Part shown: piece after piece, positions 1-35,518 of the stretch
Numbering within the stretch: the first letter of the stretch is position 1
How the letters are laid out: each line of letters opens with the position of its first letter
Assembly: GCA_029974595.1 (NCBI GenBank)
Contig: JARKRC010000047.1
Span: 1-64,000, forward strand
DNA: 64,000 bases
Reading direction: 5' to 3'
Source: Ereboglobus sp.
Lineage (GTDB): Bacteria; Verrucomicrobiota; Verrucomicrobiia; Opitutales; Opitutaceae
Translations under genes and position numbers: made by a program
Notes under the pieces: model-generated
What the model was told of the DNA's origin: nothing
The model's database searches: none
Seen by the model: the letters and a program-made list of their open reading frames with translations, nothing else

Positions 1-120
1 TTCCTCCGCCACAGTGTTCGCACTGCGGCCACTGCTCTTCCAATGCTCCAGCGCCTCCTCCTTATACTCTTTGGTGAACTTTCTCTTTTCTCTGACGGGT
101 TTGCTTATCTGCGTTTTCAT
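1..120 (-). CDS. IS3-family transposase OrfA, N-terminal part (cut by window edge)
   Basis: The minus strand encodes 40 residues beginning MKTQISKPVREKRKF and continuing with TKEYKEEALEHWKSSG and RSANTVAEE, then running off the window edge. This is the start of the helix-turn-helix OrfA protein of IS3-family elements, which binds the element ends and is normally joined to the DDE catalytic OrfB by programmed frameshifting. Only the N-terminal half of the HTH is inside the window. The frame is open with no damage, so the element could be intact to the left. Confidence 0.7.
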   Translation of the reverse strand, partial: MKTQISKPVREKRKFTKEYKEEALEHWKSSGRSANTVAEE

Positions 121-172
121 TCGCGTTTCCTTCTGTTTTTATCCCTTCCCCCCTGTCCGTCAATTCGGGGCA
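1..172 (-). mobile_element. End of an IS3-family insertion sequence
   Basis: This covers the orfA start (reading off the left edge) plus about 50 bp of non-coding end. Read on the minus strand, the outer end begins near 172 with TGCCCCGAATTGACGGACAG, which has the look of an IS3-family terminal inverted repeat starting with TG. The other end and any target duplication lie outside the window, so the boundary at 172 is an inference. The element abuts the start codon of the first cassette gene by 5 bp. Confidence 0.55.
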
Positions 173-177
173 TCCTC

Positions 178-591
178 ATGAATGATACTTCATCGTTTAC
201 CTCCGATATAAGAAAAATCCGGCTGCGCCGGATAAAAGCTGGCTCGCTTTTCAAACTGGTAATGCTTTCCAGTTCGGCGATTTTCGTTCCGATGATGGTT
301 TTCTCCGGAGTGCTCGCGTTCTTCGGCGCGAAGACTGTTACCTTTTCCGGTGAGCATGTGACCGGAGTGAAAGGTTTGATCTCTGCGCTCATCATGGCTC
401 CGTTATTCACTCTCTTCTTTTCTTTATTCGCATGGGTCGGTGCTTACATCGGCATTCGCACCTTCGGATATTTCTGGCCGCTGGAACTTGAGTATGTGCC
501 AGCGAAAGAAAGAAAAGAGCCGAACCAGCCGCCGGAGCCAACGGCCATGCCTGTCACGCCTCCTGCTGCGCAGGAGCCGCGGCAGCCGTAG
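178..591 (+). CDS. Small two-helix membrane protein, integron cassette gene
   Basis: A 137-residue protein if it starts at the ATG at 178 (MNDTSSFTSD). The frame is open upstream to 43, but that part lies in the IS end. Two hydrophobic segments are visible, at roughly residues 25-47 and 68-98, so it is probably an inner-membrane protein with a soluble C-terminus. I do not recognise a family. The last ~25 residues (EPNQPPEPTAMPVTPP and on) are encoded by the attC site that follows, not by the ancestral gene. An IS3 end sits immediately upstream and has probably removed the original upstream attC and any promoter. Confidence 0.6.
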   Translation: MNDTSSFTSDIRKIRLRRIKAGSLFKLVMLSSSAIFVPMMVFSGVLAFFGAKTVTFSGEHVTGVKGLISALIMAPLFTLFFSLFAWVGAYIGIRTFGYFWPLELEYVPAKERKEPNQPPEPTAMPVTPPAAQEPRQP

Positions 592-616
592 CCGTGGCTC
601 TTCTTGATCGTTGGGC
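519..616 (+). other. attC recombination site (integron cassette 1, plus array)
   Basis: A 98 bp site with left core GCCGAAC (519-525) and right core GTTGGGC (610-616), matching the RYYYAAC...GTTRRRY layout of integron attC sites. Between them lies imperfectly self-complementary sequence able to form the folded bottom strand used by IntI. It follows one small gene and precedes the next start codon by 5 bp, as expected at a cassette junction. Confidence 0.7.
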
Positions 617-621
617 AAAAA

Positions 622-1074
622 ATGAAACTGTTTACGACAATTACGTCGGTCGTTCTTCTCGCCTCCATCGCGTTTGCGAGTTCGGACGAAAAGCCGATAT
701 CCGCCAGCGGGATTGTCAGCTTGGAGGTTTTTGCAGGTCCACCGAATTACGAAAGCATCCAGGACGGCGACGCACGAGAAGAAGCGTGGATTTTGACCGC
801 GTCGAAGAAGGAGCGCTTCCATCTCGTGGTGCTCGACGACCAAGAAAAGAAGTTTGCGACTCTGCGTCGCTGCGTTGGAAAGAGGGTTCATGTCGATGGG
901 ATGGTTTGGGCAGCACACACGGGGCATCACCGGACGCCGTTTTTGATCACCGTGAACTCAATCGAAGGAGAGCCCAATCAGACGCCAGAGCCAACGGCTG
1001 TGCTTGTCACGCCTCGTGCTGACGCACGAGCCGCGCCATCTACCTCCGTGGCTGATCTTAACATTAGCCAATGA
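622..1074 (+). CDS. Secreted DUF4431-like protein, integron cassette gene
   Basis: A 150-residue protein from the ATG at 622, six bases after the attC core. The N-terminus MKLFTTITSVVLLASIAFA is a signal peptide. The mature part contains PPNYESI, a GD...E..WIL stretch and AHTGHHRTPFLI, the combination I associate with DUF4431, a small periplasmic domain of unknown function. The final ~34 residues (GEPNQTPEPTAVLVTPRA and on) come from the attC that ends the cassette. The TGA stop overlaps the next start as ATGA, so the following methyltransferase may be translationally coupled. Function is unknown. Confidence 0.65.
   Translation: MKLFTTITSVVLLASIAFASSDEKPISASGIVSLEVFAGPPNYESIQDGDAREEAWILTASKKERFHLVVLDDQEKKFATLRRCVGKRVHVDGMVWAAHTGHHRTPFLITVNSIEGEPNQTPEPTAVLVTPRADARAAPSTSVADLNISQ
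972..1069 (+). other. attC recombination site (integron cassette 2, plus array)
   Basis: A 98 bp site closely similar in sequence and length to the one at 519-616. The left core is GCCCAAT (972-978) and the right core ATTAGCC (1063-1069). Both carry a change at the position that is normally AAC/GTT, and the two changes keep the cores complementary. The centre repeats the same CCAACGGC...GTCACGCCTC framework as the first site. Confidence 0.6.
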
Positions 1075-1838
1075 AGATCGACTACGACACCGCAGCCAGC
1101 GCATATGCCCGGTTCCGCCAGGCAAATCCAAGGATCCTCGAGCGGCTGATTCAGATTGGTCGGATCGACGAAAGAAGCCGTATCTTGGAGGTTGGCAGCG
1201 GCTCCGGCAATTATGCCATCGCGCTCACTGAACTGACCGGATGCAAGTGCCACGGGCTGGAAAAGTCAGAAGGCATGCTCGCGAAAGCACGGGAGCGAAC
1301 CGACGCGGTGGCCTGGGCTCAGGGGGACGCTCAAGCGCTTCCCTATCCCGACAAGATGTTTGATTTCTTGTTTTGCGTGGACGTTATGCACCATATTCCA
1401 AAGCCAGACCGATTTTTGGACGAGGCGTTTCGGGTATTACAGGCTGATGGCTGTCTTTGCATCGTGACGGATTCAGAGTGGACGATCCGGAATCGAACTC
1501 CCCTGTCTCTCTATTTTCCCGCGACGGTTGAAGAGGAATTGAAGCGGTATCTACCTCTTGACCGATTAAAGGAATTGATCGTGGATTCGGGGTTTTCGTA
1601 TGTGGAGGATGAGCTTGTTGAGTTGCCTTACGACCTTGAGACCGCTGACCCTTTCAGAGAGAAGGCATTTTCATGTCTGCACCTCATTTCGGAATCTGCT
1701 TTTCAAGAGGGACTCGCGGCGCTTTCGAGCGCACTCAGCAATGGTCCGCTACCCTGCATTGCTAGATCCGCACTACTCCGGGCCACCAAGAAGAAGGGTG
1801 GCAAATCGTTACGGCAAACGCGTTTCACGCGTCGCTGA
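1071..1838 (+). CDS. Class I SAM-dependent methyltransferase, integron cassette gene
   Basis: A 255-residue Rossmann-fold methyltransferase. Motif I is ILEVGSGSGNYA at about residues 38-49. It is followed by an acidic ribose-binding position (GLEKSEGM), WAQGDAQALPYPDKMFD (the Methyltransf_11 pattern) and VMHHIPKPDRFLDEAFRVL. These identify a ubiE/COQ5-like small-molecule methyltransferase, but the substrate cannot be told. The start ATG overlaps the stop of the upstream cassette gene (ATGA) and lies one base after the attC core. The Arg-rich C-terminus may again be derived from a recombination site. Confidence 0.75.
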   Translation: MKIDYDTAASAYARFRQANPRILERLIQIGRIDERSRILEVGSGSGNYAIALTELTGCKCHGLEKSEGMLAKARERTDAVAWAQGDAQALPYPDKMFDFLFCVDVMHHIPKPDRFLDEAFRVLQADGCLCIVTDSEWTIRNRTPLSLYFPATVEEELKRYLPLDRLKELIVDSGFSYVEDELVELPYDLETADPFREKAFSCLHLISESAFQEGLAALSSALSNGPLPCIARSALLRATKKKGGKSLRQTRFTRR

Positions 1839-1846
1839 CGTTCAAA
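1812..1846 (+). other. Possible degenerate attC after the methyltransferase
   Basis: CGGCAAAC, a short ACGCGTTTCACGCGT hairpin and CTGACGTTCAAA look like a collapsed attC: a left core ending AAC and a right core starting GTT, with the usual GACGTT context. The variable part is much shorter than in the other sites in this window, so this is tentative. Confidence 0.25.
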
Positions 1847-2229
1847 CGTTGATCTAGCTACGAATATACAAGCTCAAAAAAGCAAAGCCCGTCCTCAATT
1901 TTTCGCTTGGGGGTTATGTTTATATAAACTGACGTCGTTTGGAGGCACGAGACAGGGACCGGGCGATTATAGGATAAACGCGTGCGTGGGTTGGGCGTGA
2001 TCCCGGTTGAACCGTGATCGTGCTGATCTTTGCGGGTTGATTACCGACAGTGCATTGGTGCGTCTTGCCCGCATGCTCTAGGCTCGTGCGTGGCGGGCGG
2101 ATCGCTCCGTGCCCGCTGCACCGTCAACATGCATGGGCTGGCCGCCCGGTCCCTGGCTGGTGCCGCCAAACGGCGGTTCTCAAAAAACATCCTGTCGCCC
2201 GCGCCTGCTCTCAGGCCATCGCCTGGCAA
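1847..2229. other. Gene-poor stretch between cassettes
   Basis: I see no credible gene here. The first ~150 bp are AT-richer than the surroundings (around TATGTTTATATAAACTG). The rest, to about 2229, probably belongs to the decayed IS110-type element that follows on the minus strand, but its translated frames there are too degraded to recognise. Confidence 0.4.
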
Positions 2230-2577
2230 TCCGCCGTCTGCAACATTGCCCAGGCAAAGCCCGCCATTTGTTTGCATTGCCGCCCGCGTTGCGGGCTCCC
2301 GCTCGGCTCACCCCTTCGGGGCTGCGCCCTCGTCATGAGCGCCTCCACCGCCGGATGCAGTCGCCACAACGGCACCTGCAAGCCCAGCAGTTATCCACGG
2401 AGTCCTCGACGGTGCCACCACCACGCAGTCGATGCCCAACTGCCGCAGCCGCCGGTAGAGCACGTAGCCGATCGGCCTCGCCTCGTAGTCCACGTGCAGC
2501 TCCCCGCCGTCGGCCACCGCGATCATGATCGTATCCTTGTGGACATCCAGCCCCACATAGTGTTGCGTCTTTTTCAT
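2230..2577 (-). pseudogene. Decayed IS110-family transposase
   Basis: The minus strand from 2577 starts MKKTQHYVGLDVHKDTIM and continues with VADGG, an N-terminal DEDD transposase of the IS110 family. It then jumps directly to ELHVDYEARPIGYVLYRRL and QLGIDCVVVAPS, so an internal stretch of roughly 35 residues is missing. After that the frame shifts. Traces in another frame (WRLHPAVEAL, then QMAGFAWAM) resemble the middle and C-terminal parts of the same family. The copy cannot make a functional recombinase. The 140 bp between its start and the next gene would correspond to the non-coding end that carries the bridge RNA in intact IS110 elements. Confidence 0.65.
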
Positions 2578-2717
2578 GCGCTTGTCCTCATTTTCAGGTT
2601 GTTACGGTTTGTCCTTCAGCCTTGTGGCTCGGCCCGCTCCTCACAGGCAACCCACGTCCAGGGGACAAGCGCCTTCTTTCACTGCCTGCGCTCATCCGCA
2701 GCTATAATGTCTAGCCA

Positions 2718-3500
2718 ATGAAAAACACCCCTAAATCCTATCACGAACACTTCGCTCGTTTCTTCGAGCAGCCCACACGGGAAAGCCTTCGCGAGCTGCT
2801 TAAGAACAATGTTGGAGAATTTCGCCAGTGCGACTTCAAAGCTCAACTTCCAGAATGGTCATCGTTAGCGAAGCATATTCTAGCCATGGCAAACTCAGGT
2901 GGGGGTGCAATTATTGTGGGTGTCTCAGAACAAGACGATGGGAGTCTAGAACCGAAAGGAGTAGATAAAATCGAAGATAAAGCTGTCATTACAAATGGAA
3001 TCAAGGGTTTTTTGCCTGAATCGCTTTTAGGTAAAATCGATTTGGTCGATTTCAGATATGATTCAAGCGATTTTGCCAAATTGGCAGGTAAAAAATTCCA
3101 GACTATTTTTATTGGTTATGAGGACACCGATCTTCCCTACGTCACTGCCAAAGCCGGAGTGAGCATACGGGCGAATGCCATTTATATCAGGAGGGACGGA
3201 AGTTCAGACGAGGCATCCAATGATGAATTACAAAAATTAATAAATAAAAGATTGGAAACAGGTCAATCCACTACCCAGCAACTCGATTTAAAGGAAGAGA
3301 TAGGTCAGCTTAAAACATTGTTTGAGTTTATCCCCGCCAGCTACTCGTCCCCAACTTTCGCTGTAAATATAGCTAAATTTCTCCAGGGAGCAATTACCAC
3401 AAGTCCCAATCCAAATTATCCAAGCGAAGGTTTCGAAAAATTTATCAGTCGAATGATAGAGAGAAAAAAATTACGAATACAAAAAAAACTTGGGCTATGA
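2718..3500 (+). CDS. AlbA_2/Schlafen-type putative DNA-binding protein
   Basis: A 260-residue protein. Residues ~30-160 carry the AlbA_2 (Schlafen AlbA-like, formerly divergent AAA-4) pattern: E(F/x)...DFKAQLPEW, then LAMANSGGGAIIVGVSE and a YIRRDGSS-type strand. Such domains occur in putative transcriptional regulators and in several phage-defence proteins. The C-terminal ~100 residues are Lys-rich and unrecognised. The gene is clearly more AT-rich than its neighbours, with many AAA/ATT codons, which points to recent transfer. Its ATG follows TCTAGCCA, the same cassette-start context seen at 1063-1073, so it is probably another integron cassette. Confidence 0.6.
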   Translation: MKNTPKSYHEHFARFFEQPTRESLRELLKNNVGEFRQCDFKAQLPEWSSLAKHILAMANSGGGAIIVGVSEQDDGSLEPKGVDKIEDKAVITNGIKGFLPESLLGKIDLVDFRYDSSDFAKLAGKKFQTIFIGYEDTDLPYVTAKAGVSIRANAIYIRRDGSSDEASNDELQKLINKRLETGQSTTQQLDLKEEIGQLKTLFEFIPASYSSPTFAVNIAKFLQGAITTSPNPNYPSEGFEKFISRMIERKKLRIQKKLGL

Positions 3501-3773
3501 GAGAACCTTCTCTGAGTAACGATGTCAAGTGAGGCAGTTGTATAGAGGAGAAAGGCACATTGTATTATTTTGCTTTCTTTGAGTTTGTCGCCACTGGCCG
3601 GGAGCGCGGCGATGAGTGCCCCGCTTTGTTATGTAAACCAAAGCGGGTCCGCATGGCCTGGCGGATGTCGTGCGGGGAGCGGCAGATCCGGCGATCACAC
3701 TTCTCCATCCGGAATTGGGCATCGCGGACGGCAAACCGGCGGGCGTGCCGTTGCCTTGCGATAAGCGACACCG
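3501..3773. other. Spacer at the accessory/core boundary
   Basis: No gene is supported. The first ~70 bp keep the AT-rich composition of the preceding cassette. From about 3590 the GC rises to the level of the rest of the window, marking the edge of the transferred segment. No convincing attC could be drawn here. Confidence 0.35.
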
Positions 3774-29012: not shown

Positions 29013-29089
29013 GATGCGGGGGAAATGCCGGCACATCGCGCGTCGCGAAAACACCGGCTGGGCGAAGGGATGATTCAGGGGATGTGACC

Positions 29090-29290
29090 TGAAGATTACC
29101 CGCAAGTTGGCGCGAGACAGCGAATGCCTTTCGTAGCGCAGGCTTCCAGCCTGCATTCCGGAAGCAGGCTGGAAGCCTGCGCTACGGCGCTGTCGCGACA
29201 AACTCGACGGCTGCGACGGTTGCGTCCTTTTCCGTGCTTCCGTGTTTCCGTGATTTATAAAAACACAAGCGGGATTGCGGCATTGCGCGG
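29090..29290. repeat. Copy A of a ~200 bp inverted repeat flanking the integron
   Basis: The sequence TGAAGATTACCCGCAAGTTGG, then GCGAGACAGCGAATGCCTTT, a GCAGGCTTCCAGCCTGC palindrome pair, a TTTCCGTG-type run and CACAAGCGG...CATTGCGCG is repeated in opposite orientation at 33456-33655 with about 90% identity by eye. The two copies bracket the cassette array and the recombinase remnant. Confidence 0.85.
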
Positions 29291-29479: not shown

Positions 29480-29539
29480 AGCTAACGTCAAGGGTCAGGC
29501 ATCGGCGGAACACCGGTTGCCTGCCCCCGCTTGTTCTAT
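29480..29539 (-). other. attC site, distal end of minus-strand cassette array
   Basis: Read on the minus strand: left core ATAGAAC (29533-29539), a stem GGCAGGC...GCCTGAC, and CTTGACGTTAGCT with right core GTTAGCT (29480-29486). At 60 bp it is the shortest of the four minus-strand sites. It lies 2 bp beyond the stop codon of the NADAR gene. Confidence 0.7.
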
Positions 29540-29541
29540 GT

Positions 29542-30102
29542 TTATTGGGATAGGCGATGCCGAACCTCCATCAGAGCGAATCCCAGAAGATTTGATCCGT
29601 TCCATAGATTTGGTTTTGTTGCGCGATCATCATCCAAGGCCATTCCAATACCCCAGATTCTATCGTGAGGGCTGGCCTCTACAAGAACCTTGGAACCTGT
29701 GGCTATGAGAAACCTTTTCATTGGTTCGTGCTGAGAGAACTTGGCCACGTTGCCGCGAACGACAATATCGAACCTCTTGCCGACCCATATGGCTTCGTCA
29801 AAACCGGTCACTTTTCGTCCAAGGGCTTTTGCTGCTCCGGGGCTTCCTGCGGAAAGAATCTGATTATGAATACTTGAATCCCCAAATAAACGGGCCTTTT
29901 CTGCCATCATAAAGTGCTCTGTCGTTGGATACTGGACCCCATCAACGACAAACTTGGAAGAAAACCAATTGCTGAGACAGCTCTGGTCAATTCGATCGGG
30001 AACGCGAGAGCGGTGTCCCCAGAAAAATTGATACTTGGGACGCAATCCGCTCGCCACTAACCGGGCCAACTCTTCAACCGTTCGCGCATCTTGCGGTTTC
30101 AT
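29542..30102 (-). CDS. NADAR-family protein (YbiA-like), integron cassette gene
   Basis: 186 residues from the ATG at 30102 (MKPQDARTVEELARL), 8 bp after the upstream attC core. Hallmarks of the NADAR/YbiA fold are FFWGHRSR, CLSNWFSSKFVVDGVQYPTTEHFMM, KARLFGD, a long AKALGRKV helix and the end IWGIGMALDD with NLWNGSNLLGFALM. Family members cleave N-glycosidic bonds. YbiA acts on riboflavin precursors, while other NADAR proteins remove ADP-ribose from guanine in DNA and act as antitoxins or in phage defence. No DarT-type toxin is adjacent. The stop lies just before its own attC. Confidence 0.85.
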   Translation of the reverse strand: MKPQDARTVEELARLVASGLRPKYQFFWGHRSRVPDRIDQSCLSNWFSSKFVVDGVQYPTTEHFMMAEKARLFGDSSIHNQILSAGSPGAAKALGRKVTGFDEAIWVGKRFDIVVRGNVAKFSQHEPMKRFLIATGSKVLVEASPHDRIWGIGMALDDDRATKPNLWNGSNLLGFALMEVRHRLSQ

Positions 30103-30110
30103 GTTTCGTC

Positions 30111-30221
30111 GTAGAACGTCAAAGATCAGGCACGGAGGTAGCTGGCGCGGCGCGTGCTGGTGCGAATCGCCAAGCACGAGTCGCGCCAGCTACCGGAGTT
30201 GCCTGCATCGCTTGGTTCGGC
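30111..30221 (-). other. attC site of the endonuclease-like cassette
   Basis: On the minus strand: left core GCCGAAC (30215-30221), then CAAGCGATGCAGGC, a long stem of TAGCTGGCGCG and CGCGCCAGCTA, then GCCTGATCTTTGACGTTCTAC with right core GTTCTAC (30111-30117). It is 111 bp long. The upstream gene's reading frame runs through nearly all of it. Confidence 0.8.
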
Positions 30222-31930
30222 TCCTTCTTGGTTTTTCGCTTGGCGTGCTCGGCAATCTCAAGTGCGCGCGTGGGGATGTGTTCATCAAATCGCACGTAAA
30301 CTAGCTCAACGCCGTTACTGCTACAAAGGTGTTGCTTCCGTCGATCTCGGACCTGCACATCATCGAACCCAGCCTTCCCGCCGAAGAAGTCGATTGGACG
30401 ATAATGTTGCTCGCCCATGAACTCAACTGCTATTGAGACGTCGGGGATATAGATGTCCAGATGCTGAGGCTCGATCCAAACTGGTCTGGCGTGCTGTTCG
30501 ACCGTAAACGGCTTCAAATGCCTGCGCAGAAGCTGAAAAAGCTGATTCTCGGAGACCCACTGAGTCCTTCCGATCTCCTTGTCCCAAATTCGACGCAACC
30601 AGTGAGCTGCCTGATCTAAAAGCTCTTTCCACTCGGTCATGTCCCGAGGTGTCTGTGGCCGCTGAGTCGAAGTGCTGCCAAAGGGATGACTAATGCCAAC
30701 TGCGGCTCCATCTCTCCATGTATTCGCTACCTGCTTCGCAGACACGACGGACGCACTCCGAATCCAGTCATCGAGACGGAGTTCAGCCCAATCGCGGAAT
30801 TGGGCGAGCTTCTTGAAATCGAAATCGTCCCGACTGGTGGATGGTCTGAGCACCTCTTTGATCGAAGCCATTTTCTGAAAAAGTCCCGTGACAATATCGC
30901 TGCCGGTCAAATCGAAGCCGTGCTCAAACTTCAGTTGCAAGAGGCGTCCAAAGTGTCGCTTATTCATGATTGGATGGGAACTGTAGAGGCGAATCAGTCG
31001 ATCCGGAGGCGCAGACGCCGGGGAGAAGCTGTCATGGCCCATTGCTGCGAATAGCATTGAATGGCTTACAGAAGTAACGCCTGAACCAGTCACAAGGTCG
31101 ATAAAGTCAATCAAGTTTCGCTCCTCGCCCTTATGCCCAAAGCTCACAAGATGCTCTTGGGCAGCATCCACAACCTCATCACCTCGCTTAAGGTAGTTGA
31201 GCACGTGCTCGGCTCGCGGAGTTGCGCCGCTAGAGCGAGCACGTTCGACCGTTGTGGGTGGTCGCTCGCCAAAGCGCGGCGGGCAGCGCCGCTTGATTCT
31301 CTCGATCATCTTCTTCTGTCCATAGTCGCCATCTGAAACGAAATCTCCCCAATCCTGCGCGGAAAGACCAAACGCTTCTTTCAGATCGCGAAGAACGTTC
31401 GCCGACGGTTCGGTGCCTAAGGCAATCTGAGCTACCGCCAACATCTCCAGAAAGGGCTTTCCGGATACGCAGCTTCGACCACAGCAGACCTGACCATTTG
31501 AAAAACCAGAAGCAAATCCTGTCTCGATGAATCGGTCGATCACGGTGGCCCAGTCCTCCTGAACGAATGCCAGCCGAATCAACCGATCATAGTCGGGCTC
31601 AGTTCGATACGATTGCGTTCCGTTGGCTGTGGTCTTGTAGTGGTTCTCGGCGGCGGCTAAATCCCCCAAAATCCATGCCAAATCTCCAAGTTTTCGATGG
31701 TGACGGTTCGACTCGTAGTATTCTTGAGCCTTCTCGAAGCATCCGCATGCCATGTAAGTATCGGTGAGGTAGCCAGCATGACACTTCTGCTCACTCCCTA
31801 GTGCAATATAAAGTCTCTCAAATGGATTCAATTCGTGGTCTGGCGTCATGGCGATGATGTCGTATACCAAGCTCTCCACAATCGAATAGCTGGGCATCAC
31901 GATTTCATTTTCTCCGTGCCAGATTTTCAT
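30119..31930 (-). CDS. Large cassette protein with C-terminal restriction-endonuclease-like domain
   Basis: 603 residues from the ATG at 31930 (MKIWHGENEIV), 7 bp after the attC core. The N-terminal ~300 residues are helical with TPR-like spacing (CFEKAQEYYES, KLGDLAWILGDLAAAENHY). Near the C-terminus (~500-575) a PD-(D/E)xK/Vsr-like pattern appears: LDIYIPDVSIAVEFMGEQHY followed by DRRKQHLCSSNGVELVYVRFDE. This resembles endonuclease-fold domains that end with a short strand and Lys/Arg-rich helix. Nuclease activity is inferred only. The last ~33 residues (KEPNQAMQATPVAGAT and on) are encoded by the attC. Composition is AT-richer than core genes. A defence role is plausible. Confidence 0.6.
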   Translation of the reverse strand: MKIWHGENEIVMPSYSIVESLVYDIIAMTPDHELNPFERLYIALGSEQKCHAGYLTDTYMACGCFEKAQEYYESNRHHRKLGDLAWILGDLAAAENHYKTTANGTQSYRTEPDYDRLIRLAFVQEDWATVIDRFIETGFASGFSNGQVCCGRSCVSGKPFLEMLAVAQIALGTEPSANVLRDLKEAFGLSAQDWGDFVSDGDYGQKKMIERIKRRCPPRFGERPPTTVERARSSGATPRAEHVLNYLKRGDEVVDAAQEHLVSFGHKGEERNLIDFIDLVTGSGVTSVSHSMLFAAMGHDSFSPASAPPDRLIRLYSSHPIMNKRHFGRLLQLKFEHGFDLTGSDIVTGLFQKMASIKEVLRPSTSRDDFDFKKLAQFRDWAELRLDDWIRSASVVSAKQVANTWRDGAAVGISHPFGSTSTQRPQTPRDMTEWKELLDQAAHWLRRIWDKEIGRTQWVSENQLFQLLRRHLKPFTVEQHARPVWIEPQHLDIYIPDVSIAVEFMGEQHYRPIDFFGGKAGFDDVQVRDRRKQHLCSSNGVELVYVRFDEHIPTRALEIAEHAKRKTKKEPNQAMQATPVAGATRAWRFAPARAAPATSVPDL

Positions 31931-31936
31931 TTTTTT

Positions 31937-32041
31937 GCCGAACGTCAAAGATCAGCCACGCGACCAGCGAGCAACGCCCGTTGGAGCGTTCCCGGAAAAG
32001 GACGGAGCAGCAACCGCGTTGGCTGTAGCGCCTGGTTCGGC
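31937..32041 (-). other. attC site of the membrane-protein cassette
   Basis: On the minus strand: left core GCCGAAC (32035-32041), CAGGCGCTACAGCC, variable centre, GGCTGATCTTTGACGTTCGGC with right core GTTCGGC (31937-31943). The cores are exact reverse complements. Length 105 bp. Confidence 0.85.
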
Positions 32042-32045
32042 TCTT

Positions 32046-32430
32046 TCATGGGTAAACGGCAGTAAATAACGCAACGAACGCTACGGCGAGAGGCACGCCA
32101 GCGGCATTGAAGTAGAGCGATCGCATGCGTCGCAATAATCTTAGCTCGAGCGCGCCAAAGAGAAGTGAGCCGCCAAGGATTAGCGCGGCGATGCCGGGCC
32201 CGTGTAGCTCCGCGGTAAGCATCACGAATGCTGCATAGGCTGCTAGGAGAGCGTAGAGCGCCGCGCAGACCCAAAGCGCTACTTTCTTCTTCCACGCACA
32301 TACCCATGATATACGAATCATCTGAGGTGATCCGCGCGCCGCTCCACAGCATGTAAGCGACTGTCGTAGCCGTTGCGGTAATCCCGAAGGTCGCGACGGA
32401 TCTCAAGAGGTCTTCTCCGATGCGCTTCAT
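32046..32430 (-). CDS. Small membrane protein, cassette gene, probably frameshifted
   Basis: An ATG at 32430 follows the upstream attC core by five bases, the normal cassette start. It reads MKRIGEDLLRSVATF with one transmembrane helix (to AYMLW), then becomes Arg-rich and improbable after ~45 residues. A second frame (32321 to 32046) gives MIRISWVCAWKKK and three more hydrophobic segments, ending LFTAVYP with its stop just before the attC. The simplest reading is one four-helix membrane protein broken by a single-base shift near 32310. Two overlapping small genes are the alternative. If the first frame is not broken, it reads on to 31945 with an attC-encoded EPNQALQPTR tail. Confidence 0.45.
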
Positions 32431-32435
32431 ATTCT

Positions 32436-32505
32436 GCCGAACGTTTGCGGTCAGACACGGAGGGGAGCGCAGCTCCCCGGAGTTGTCTGTGCCGCCTGGT
32501 TGGCC
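32436..32505 (-). other. attC site of the first (attI-proximal) cassette
   Basis: On the minus strand: left core GGCCAAC (32499-32505), CAGGCGGCACAGAC, a GGGGAGC-GCTCCCC stem, GTGTCTGACCGCAAACGTTCGGC with right core GTTCGGC (32436-32442). Length 70 bp. Confidence 0.8.
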
Positions 32506-32981
32506 TCTTTCTTCCAGACGCCCTGTGAATAGTGAAAATACGGCGAGTGCTTCTTGGGATCGCCGGCCTTGATAGCATCTATGGTCTTCGTCACTTCGGC
32601 AGAATGCTTCGAACCGAGAAGACTTTCGAGGAGCGGCAAGACACTGGCATCCTGCCAAAAGGCGAGGCCGAACAAGGCGCAGCCTGCCGTGTCGACGGAA
32701 CGATCCGATGCATACTGGCAATAAATCGGGAACGCTTCGGGTAATCTTCTGCCTTGGCTTAATAGCAGGTTTAGAGCCCGAACCTTTCCATCGCGCGTCG
32801 TGATCTTCTTCTCTTGGAGCGCACGAATCACCAAATCATATCGTCCGTGCCGGCCCAACGCCTCCCAAGCGGTGTCGCCAAGTTTTCTGCTCGATCCGGC
32901 AAGGACATCAACGAGCTCTTCGTCCGATTTGTCGGCGAGCAGCGTGGCCGCCTCCTGATAGCTTAGGGTTCGCAGGTTCAT
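32451..32981 (-). CDS. HEAT-like hypothetical protein, first integron cassette gene
   Basis: 176 residues from the ATG at 32981 (MNLRTLSYQEAATLL). A TTG four codons upstream lies in the recombination core and is discarded. The protein is a string of short helices with HEAT-repeat-like spacing: DEELVDVLAGSSRKLGDTAWEALGRHG, VRALNLLLSQGRRLPEAF, AGCALFGLAFWQDASVLPLLESLLG. No family or function is recognised. The final ~20 residues (KEANQAAQTTPG and on) come from its attC. As the first cassette it would be the one best expressed from an integron promoter. Confidence 0.55.
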   Translation of the reverse strand: MNLRTLSYQEAATLLADKSDEELVDVLAGSSRKLGDTAWEALGRHGRYDLVIRALQEKKITTRDGKVRALNLLLSQGRRLPEAFPIYCQYASDRSVDTAGCALFGLAFWQDASVLPLLESLLGSKHSAEVTKTIDAIKAGDPKKHSPYFHYSQGVWKKEANQAAQTTPGSCAPLRV

Positions 32982-32987
32982 CTTTTC

Positions 32988-33146
32988 GGCCAACAGTATT
33001 ATTGAGAGGAACTGGGAGTTCCGGTTTTGATGGTTGTGATTATTGACTGGGTTCTCAATGGTGAGTTTTTAGAAATGATTGTTTGAAAGAGTATAATGAA
33101 AATTTCAGCTTGAATTTTTCTGGTTTCGTTGCGCCATTTTGACCTT
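32988..33146 (-). promoter_or_regulatory. attI-like core and integron leader/promoter region
   Basis: A core-like GTTGGCC (minus strand, 32988-32994) precedes the first cassette start by 6 bp. Beyond it, 32995-33146 is strikingly AT-rich for this window and separates the cassettes from a divergent recombinase remnant, the place where attI, the cassette promoter and the intI promoter sit in integrons. On the plus strand GTATAAT near 33090 could serve the recombinase. The exact attI limits cannot be set from sequence alone. Confidence 0.5.
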
Positions 33147-33455
33147 ATGAATGCGGACAATAACGGAACTGAAAAAGCGGAACTGGCGGGAGAGGATAGG
33201 CCGATCTTGTTTTTTAGGTGGAGGGAGTAGTTAGCGAAATTGCGGTGGTCGGACGGAGGGAAGGCGATGCACGAGCGGGTGGGTTTCGGGCTTTTGAAAT
33301 ACTGCAAGGAGAGGGGGCGGGCGGTGAGCATCGCGGTGATACGGGGATATCTGGCGGAGTTGCAGGGACAGGGCAAGCCGATTGAAGAGGTGCGGGGGCG
33401 ACGATGTTTTGTTTCTCACCCCGCGCATCGTGATGCATTCCGACCAAACGGGGTT
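33147..33455 (+). pseudogene. Truncated tyrosine recombinase, probable integron integrase remnant
   Basis: From the ATG at 33147 the frame reads MNADNNGTEKAEL, then DRPILFFRWRE, an amber codon (TAG, 33225-33230 region), then LAKLRWSDGGKAMHERVG, FGLLKYCKERGRAVSIAV and IRGYLAELQGQGKPIEEV before losing sense near the inverted repeat. The helical spacing with a YCK-type helix resembles the SAM-like core-binding domain at the N-terminus of phage and integron integrases. No catalytic domain (R...HxxR...Y) follows. Position and divergent orientation relative to the minus-strand cassettes are exactly those of intI. The family call rests on pattern and context, not on a search. Confidence 0.45.
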
Positions 33456-33655
33456 CGCGCAATGCCGCTTGTGTTTCATAAATCACGGAAACACGGAATC
33501 ACGGAAAAGGACGCAAAGGACGCAGCGGTTGAGTTTGTCGCGTCAGCGCCGTAGCGCAGGCTTCCAGCCTGCTTCCGGCAAGCAGGCTGGAAGCCTGCGC
33601 TACGAAAGGCATTCGCTGTCTCGCGCCAACTTGTGGGTAATCTTCAGGATGTGAC
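33456..33655. repeat. Copy B of the ~200 bp inverted repeat flanking the integron
   Basis: The reverse complement of 29090-29290 with scattered differences, including the GCAGGCTTCCAGCCTGC palindrome pair, the CACGGAAA-type 8-mer run and the ATCTTCAGG end. It begins where the recombinase remnant stops making sense, so its insertion or a recombination event at it may have truncated that gene. Confidence 0.85.
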
Positions 33656-35353: not shown

Positions 35354-35463
35354 CGCGTGCGACAGGGAGGGGCTCCATCATTTGTTTGTTTTGCGGCTTG
35401 TTTTTTTTGGCGAGGCTTGCGCCTCGTCCGGCGGCGGGACGCCGCCGCTCCCTGTCGCACGCG
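35354..35463. repeat. Dispersed large hairpin repeat, copy 2
   Basis: The outer arms CGCGTGCGACAGGGAGG and the matching CTCCCTGTCGCACGCG are perfect complements. Inside are the conserved core GCGAGGCTTGCGCCTCGTC and GGCGGCGGGACGCCGCCG. It lies upstream of secG in the 535 bp gap before the rhamnosidase gene. Confidence 0.85.
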
Positions 35464-35518
35464 CCCTTTGTGAAGCTTTTTGCAATTTTCACGCAGAAAT
35501 CCCCGCTGCAAATTACAA

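Follow-up and report, generated by a model that had tools for sequence, protein, structure and literature searches.

The locus described here raises the question of how an integron cassette array comes to stand in a genome that has no detectable integrase gene. The window, i.e. the whole stretch of 64,000 nucleotides that was analysed, comprises bases 1–64000 of contig C22 (83,506 bp) of an Ereboglobus sp. genome of 4.07 Mb (G000 below; 77 contigs, 96.4% complete), and its positions 178–3500 are a plus-strand cassette array without an integrase, here called array 1. Contigs are designated Cn, and the other G numbers denote Opitutaceae relatives, of which G001 and G003 belong to the same genus. 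For one protein encoded in the window, the closest named matches are to Ereboglobus sp. PH5-10 (75%) and to an Opitutaceae MAG (83% over the best segment). We consider it likely (probability roughly 0.8) that array 1 is an integrase-less array among ten clusters in this genome, and that most of the others are decapitated integrons, which have kept the attI site, leader and cassettes and have lost the integrase gene intI or retain only a stub of it. Array 1 is most simply another decapitated integron with a hidden head; window base 1 is also base 1 of C22, and an insertion sequence (IS) of the IS3 family and the contig end together conceal whatever lies 5' of its first gene.

The frames of all four array 1 genes are open and lie on the plus strand. 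Gene 1 (178..591) encodes a small membrane-type protein with no Pfam family above the cut-off, gene 2 (622..1074) a protein with a DUF4431 domain, gene 3 (1071..1838) a methyltransferase (Methyltransf_11) and gene 4 (2718..3500) a protein with a Schlafen AlbA_2 domain. A preliminary description of this DNA had the genes at 178, 622 and 1071 joined by two 98 bp attC sites, which is what is found: attC 1 lies at 519..616 (GCCGAAC...GTTGGGC) and attC 2 at 972..1069 (GCCCAAT...ATTAGCC), both on the plus strand. It also gave the gene at 2718 the same start context, and that context (TAGCCAATGAA) is indeed present, because a split attC core has its right half just before gene 4. The left part of this degenerate attC 3 occupies 1800..1850 (+) and has CGTT as its final bases, and comparison of IS junctions identifies AGCC at 2713..2716 (+) as the place where the right core resumes, a junction like those of 12 other copies of the intervening element (see below). 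No attC follows gene 4 in a search with the covariance model R1 described next. A stretch of about 200 bp (3499..3705, plus strand) is 77% like C61:79050-79261, and in either array it begins where the last gene ends.

The two-helix attC architecture was recognised in 11 sites on five G000 contigs, in which 87.0% of 154 cells pair as against at most 33.1% in slid controls; none of 500 shuffles reaches the covariation score of the 11 sites, in which R'' pairs with L'' and L' with R' as is usual in attC. Model R1 was built from these 11 sites and gives attC 1 and attC 2, both members of its training set, E-values of 8e-26 and 6e-24. At E ≤ 1e-3, and with reverse-strand echoes excluded, it finds 22 attC in G000 (11 of them the training sites) on eight contigs. 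They form ten clusters, of which C22 has three and C66, C61, C26, C9, C70, C45 and C28 have one apiece. The third C22 array, at C22:64287-66706 just past the right edge of the window, is attI-headed and has four attC. Rfam gives nothing in the window at gathering thresholds, and no tRNA is present in the window or in the C22 array locus at 64287-66706. Repeat families in the 4–9 kb region of the window lie mostly within long open frames.

No integron integrase above the cut-off is present in the G000 assembly, in which the best partial match reaches 73.8 bits where the cut-off is 265. Partial matches of this kind, in which the middle of the integrase model is skipped, are also present in all 14 of 14 control genomes and presumably represent XerC/XerD-like recombinases. 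When nine relatives were rechecked at a low threshold, seven (G001, G002, G003, G004, G005, G011 and G076) gave nothing but partial matches, none above 79 bits, and G108 and G157 were found to have intI elsewhere in the genome. The G005 sequence is one 5.96-Mb contig that carries two attI and no intI, and at least a dozen attC lie downstream of one of these attI.

The heads of the clusters connect these arrays with integrons. All-against-all comparison of the clusters gave shared stretches directly 5' of the first cassettes, which end in a hairpin followed by AATAAyACtGTTnGGC. When the fetched loci were scanned loosely, with at most two substitutions allowed, ten such attI-like sites were located in G000, two each on C22, C26 and C9 and one each on C70, C45, C66 and C61, and eight of the ten clusters are headed by one. 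Four of the ten cores have the exact pattern and six deviate from it. The first open reading frame (ORF) begins 5–20 bases past the site in nine of the ten cases, and at the C9 site C9b no ORF of at least 70 codons begins within 750 bases of attI. In most clusters units of an ORF and an attC come after the head. Paired attI-like heads 1.1–2.4 kb apart are present at C9:31361 and 33710 and at C26:84754 and 85896; they share 187–378 bp of leader and look as if a head had been duplicated in tandem. Three further loose matches, at window 9431, window 3554 and C9 32287 (minus strand), have no shared leader, hairpin or cassette and were set aside as chance.

The exact pattern, AATAAYACTGTTNGNC, occurs at 94 sites in 55 of 150 family genomes, as against 2 for the reversed pattern. 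Eighteen of these sites lie within 2.5 kb of intI, and each of the 18 is located upstream of that gene and diverges from it. The 16-mer adjoins intI in the relatives that possess a true intI, and on sequence grounds it is probably the integron attI. The remaining 76 exact sites, in 47 genomes, have no intI within 2.5 kb and are called unlinked here; 29 of them are in 20 genomes without intI at E ≤ 1e-40. A contig end will account for some of the unlinked sites, but unlinked attI are also present in one- or two-contig chromosomes (G005, G006, G007, G022, G056, G076, G108 and G157). In a scan of 115 genomes of the phylum the pattern was found in 4 of the 104 outside the family (5 sites, as against 3 reverse-control sites), so that the signature is essentially family-specific, though f26 may be a second family that has it. 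Folding of the 30 bases that precede attI is better than in shuffled sequence (n = 50; the mean z is -1.37, with 58% below -1, as against -0.17 and -0.08 for two upstream controls). A hairpin there is thus favoured, not universal: 42% do not fall below -1, and sites that are related to one another were counted separately. Forty of the 94 sites were fetched, 6 linked and 34 unlinked, with the core present in all 40 by search design, and R1 finds a same-strand downstream attC (E ≤ 1e-3) at 20 of the 34 unlinked sites. One exact attI match of the same genus, G003:C9:80377, has no attC match nearby in a genome without intI.

The second array of the window, array 2 on the minus strand, is a decapitated integron because a stop-broken intI stub remains beside its attI. 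The attI core (AATAATACTGTTGGCC, 32988..33003, minus strand) heads the array, with the hairpin (GGAACTCCCAGTTCC, 33008..33022, minus strand) just upstream of it. A tblastn search with the integron integrases of relatives places a 5' intI stub with one in-frame stop at 33147..33437 on the plus strand, divergent from attI; it aligns to those integrases over 65–102 residues with a best E-value of 6e-11 (1e-8 in another search). The intI that adjoins this cassette head is only this fragment, so no functional intI is present there. The cassettes, all on the minus strand, comprise ORF 1 (32451..32981) with an attC at 32436..32505, ORF 2 (31945..32430) with an attC at 31937..32041, ORF 3 of 603 aa (30119..31930) with an attC at 30111..30221, and ORF 4 (29542..30102) with a short attC at 29480..29539; the ORFs are from the ORF map and the first three attC from R1, which missed the short one, recognised by eye and outside the 22. 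On the cassette strand of the leader of array 2, scanning for promoters gave no promoter-like site. Inverted repeats (93% identical; 29088-29279 and 33458-33648), parts of which recur on C9, flank array 2 together with the intI stub, and these could delimit a mobile unit or belong to a dispersed intergenic repeat. A repeat of ~40–100 bp near window 35380-35470 occurs dozens of times in G000 and is also present in G001 and G003.

Stubs of intI (E ≤ 1e-5 and divergent) were found at 4 of 44 unlinked sites, namely array 2, the C9 site C9a, one site in G056 and one in G062; the last three are 24, 41 and 76 codons long, respectively. At a looser E of 0.01, 8 of the 44 sites have matches, versus 4 in the reversed-sequence control. 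A match at L152 (4.6e-5) was dropped as a stub, being in the other orientation and more than 1.2 kb away. The leaders are shared as well. Two unlinked sites of G007 have 571 bp in common at 85%, and share 247 and 198 bp with the linked site of that genome; leaders are shared over 307 bp at 92% within G056 and over 407 bp at 88% within G062, and the C9a and C9b leaders match the intI-linked leader of G007 over 224–226 bp at 80–81%. In G007, G056 and G062 the stretch shared by linked and unlinked sites extends beyond the first Met of intI.

The integron integrase IntI inserts cassettes at attI, and arrays grow from the head. We suggest that intI was lost from complete integrons, in part after duplication of a leader-attI segment, and that this would have left the scattered arrays. 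Their cassettes may be expressed from the leader, and cassette capture in G000 would have ceased because no integrase remains; the drift of six of the ten attI cores fits such a cessation. Several points weigh against this reading. In an assembly of 77 contigs that is 96.4% complete, intI could lie in a gap. The loose scan gave no attI in array 1, which begins at the contig start, or in the C28 cluster, and the attC of gene 3 is degenerate, with an R1 score of only 3.7 bits. A recognisable stub is present at only 4 of the 44 unlinked sites, so that loss in place is a supposition for the other 40; comparison of synteny with G001 and G003, in which an empty site was sought, recovered only one flank. 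Finally, 14 of the 34 unlinked sites have no attC at E ≤ 1e-3, four of these with less than 0.8 kb of contig left; misses by R1 are to be expected, as it was trained on G000 only.

The alternative that survives best is a distributed integron, in which the scattered attI would still function as docking sites and one or a few integrases encoded elsewhere in the genome would act on them in trans, and we regard it as possible and rather doubtful for the arrays described here. It gains from the 47 of 76 unlinked sites that are in genomes with intI, from the closed or nearly closed genomes G006, G007, G022 and G056, which hold linked and unlinked sites together, and from the same-strand attC downstream of 20 of the 34 fetched unlinked sites. 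Furthermore, a stretch of 475 bp is common, at 77%, to two unlinked sites of different genera, where its distance from attI differs, and a pair of unlinked G007 arrays has 597 bp in common at 86%. G000 itself, however, has no detected integrase, and the deviation of six of its ten attI cores is what decay predicts; the single contig of G005 likewise holds two attI with arrays and no intI. When linked arrays were compared with unlinked ones of their own genome over 6 kb, no near-identical cassette was common to both, and the 99.5–99.8% matches between such arrays are IS copies. Still more tentatively, Opitutaceae in general may possess distributed integrons, with several scattered attI heads that each have their own leader and array and are served in trans, a variable hairpin preceding the nearly invariant AATAACACTGTTRGGC core.

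It is less likely again that G000 has an intI that is absent from the assembly. The fragmentation and incompleteness already mentioned speak for such a gap, as do the attI of several relatives that lie near contig ends, as if arrays break assemblies. Against it, the ten attI-like sites of G000 lie inside contigs (that on C70 is 478 bases from an end) and none is beside an intact intI, two having stubs; G001, of the same genus and assembled as one contig at 99% completeness, also has no intI, though it has no attC match either. A third possibility, that an integrase placed the cassettes at non-classical chromosomal attG sites and not at attI, appears very improbable, and it is an unlikely origin for the eight attI-headed clusters. 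Such insertion, which would scatter cassettes, is established elsewhere according to work cited in the excerpted text of PMC12444791, and it may yet apply to array 1 and the C28 cluster, in which no attI is seen; the other eight of ten clusters start at a conserved attI with a common leader, a site that adjoins intI in relatives.

Array 1 is interrupted at both of the places where the preliminary description put insertion sequences, an IS3 end 5 bp before the first gene and an IS110-type remnant before the last. The former is the 5' end of an IS3-family element (1..172, minus strand) that is cut by the contig end. It terminates at ~170–172, five bases 5' of gene 1, and matches a second copy of this end on C9 at 97% (window 61-178); in Pfam it has a weak HTH_Tnp_1 match (E 0.0067) from the 38 aa inside the window. 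There is no sign that this element targets attC, its end being outside any attC and the flank of the C9 copy being different.

The element before gene 4 is an IS110/IS1111-family remnant (1851..2712, minus strand) of 862 bp, as compared to ~1600–1690 bp for full copies, with a truncated transposase gene. An N-terminal transposase fragment at 2308..2577 (minus strand) has no Pfam match alone, and the window copy is dead. The insertion would have split attC 3 between GTT and the rest of its right core, after which the element would have lost most of the transposase gene and a guide-like stretch. In the window GTT (1848-1850) is followed by the element and then by AGCC; the right end, as far as window 2713, recurs in another partial copy, on C26. 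The element is present in 21 of 150 family genomes searched (at least 90% complete), and 26 copies drawn from the matches of that search were examined for their junctions. Both ends were located in 13, and comparison of the four G056 copies reveals both boundaries. The left junction is CGTT|GATCTAGC in all 13, most of which have recognisable attC L' sequence ahead of it, and (A/C/G)G(G/C)C immediately follows the element in 22 of the 26, the exceptions being the C26 copy, the G094 copy and two of the four G058 copies, one of which reads CGGT. The ends thus lie within the attC right core, so that the earlier suggestion that the location may not be due to chance, which was to be examined by defining the IS110 ends and asking if they split an attC, is supported.

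Copies that are more complete indicate how the site may be chosen. The intact G007 copy encodes a transposase with DEDD_Tnp_IS110 (1.1e-21) and Transposase_20 (4.4e-22) domains. In copies with a frame of at least 369 codons the non-coding region after the transposase gene is 357–427 bp long, and that before the gene at most 135 bp. The attC L'-R' junction sequence, (A/G)ACGTT(A/C)GG, is found in the non-coding region past the transposase frame in all 12 other copies with both ends located, and the window copy has a four-base gap where they carry it. This core-matching stretch is probably the guide of the IS, in the manner of a seekRNA, as its match to the target suggests. That the IS sits in attC by chance is scarcely credible, since the same position is used by 13 of 13 left and 22 of 26 right junctions, 13 of which look independent, and the core-like stretch recurs in 12 of 12 other copies, even though four right junctions, that of the G000 copy on C26 among them, do not read (A/C/G)G(G/C)C. 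An 8 bp sequence, TAGCTGCG, stands near one IS end with its complement near the other, as spotted by eye in the printed ends. We note also a 33-base inverted repeat (88%) in the non-coding region (window 1933-1965 and 2143-2175), possibly a guide RNA stem. An attI-like site lies 1.8–3.1 kb upstream of three of the four G056 copies; of the four G007 copies, two have one 2.4–3.7 kb upstream and a third has one at 10.6 kb.

The closest known elements are those of the IS1111-attC group, such as ISKpn4 and ISPst6 (Tetu and Holmes 2008 and Post and Hall 2009, as cited in the excerpt of PMC11187229); RNA from the non-coding region of ISKpn4 has been shown to bind the transposase (PMC11187229, same excerpt). 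Like that group as outlined there, the Opitutaceae elements have an IS1111/IS110-type DEDD transposase, a long non-coding region and insertion at one attC end, and they differ from its known members in their hosts, in the guide-like stretch (A/G)ACGTT(A/C)GG and, for the window copy, in being dead. We assign them to this known group as new members.

The arrays themselves resemble clusters of attC sites lacking an integron integrase (CALINs), which can be mobilised in trans and which lie away from the main integron in about half of Xanthomonas genomes, as given in the excerpted text of PMC12444791. Like CALINs they consist of cassettes with attC and have no intI close by; array 1, with its two attC, may be one, as no integrase above the cut-off is present in the assembly, but it starts at a contig end. 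Unlike CALINs, most G000 clusters are attI-headed with a shared leader, and there are about ten in one genome. According to the passages of PMC9024848 at hand, attI is poorly described outside class 1 integrons and IntegronFinder does not detect it there, so that the attI heads of such arrays would go unnoticed. A single printed case of attI at a CALIN head was found, one pair in one prophage (excerpt of PMC9892861); the attI-headed arrays described here differ from it in occurring across a family and on many chromosomes. The Delta-attI gene cassettes of mobile integrons are similar in having attI-derived sites away from intI; in the extract of PMC12901181, however, the attI pieces are the recombination site of single cassettes, whereas here whole leader-attI heads start arrays. 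Searches of the open-licence literature gave no account of attI sites that lack intI across a whole family, which is not proof of absence. It is the attI-headed, multi-locus and family-wide pattern that is new relative to the known CALINs.

The IS data add a probable attC-guided group of elements in Verrucomicrobiota. The 16-base family attI signature separates attI-headed arrays from cassettes inserted elsewhere, and with it arrays are seen that can outlive the integrase at many loci of one genome. If unlinked attI do still acquire cassettes through an integrase acting in trans, the usual view of an integron as a single platform with a single attI would be too narrow.

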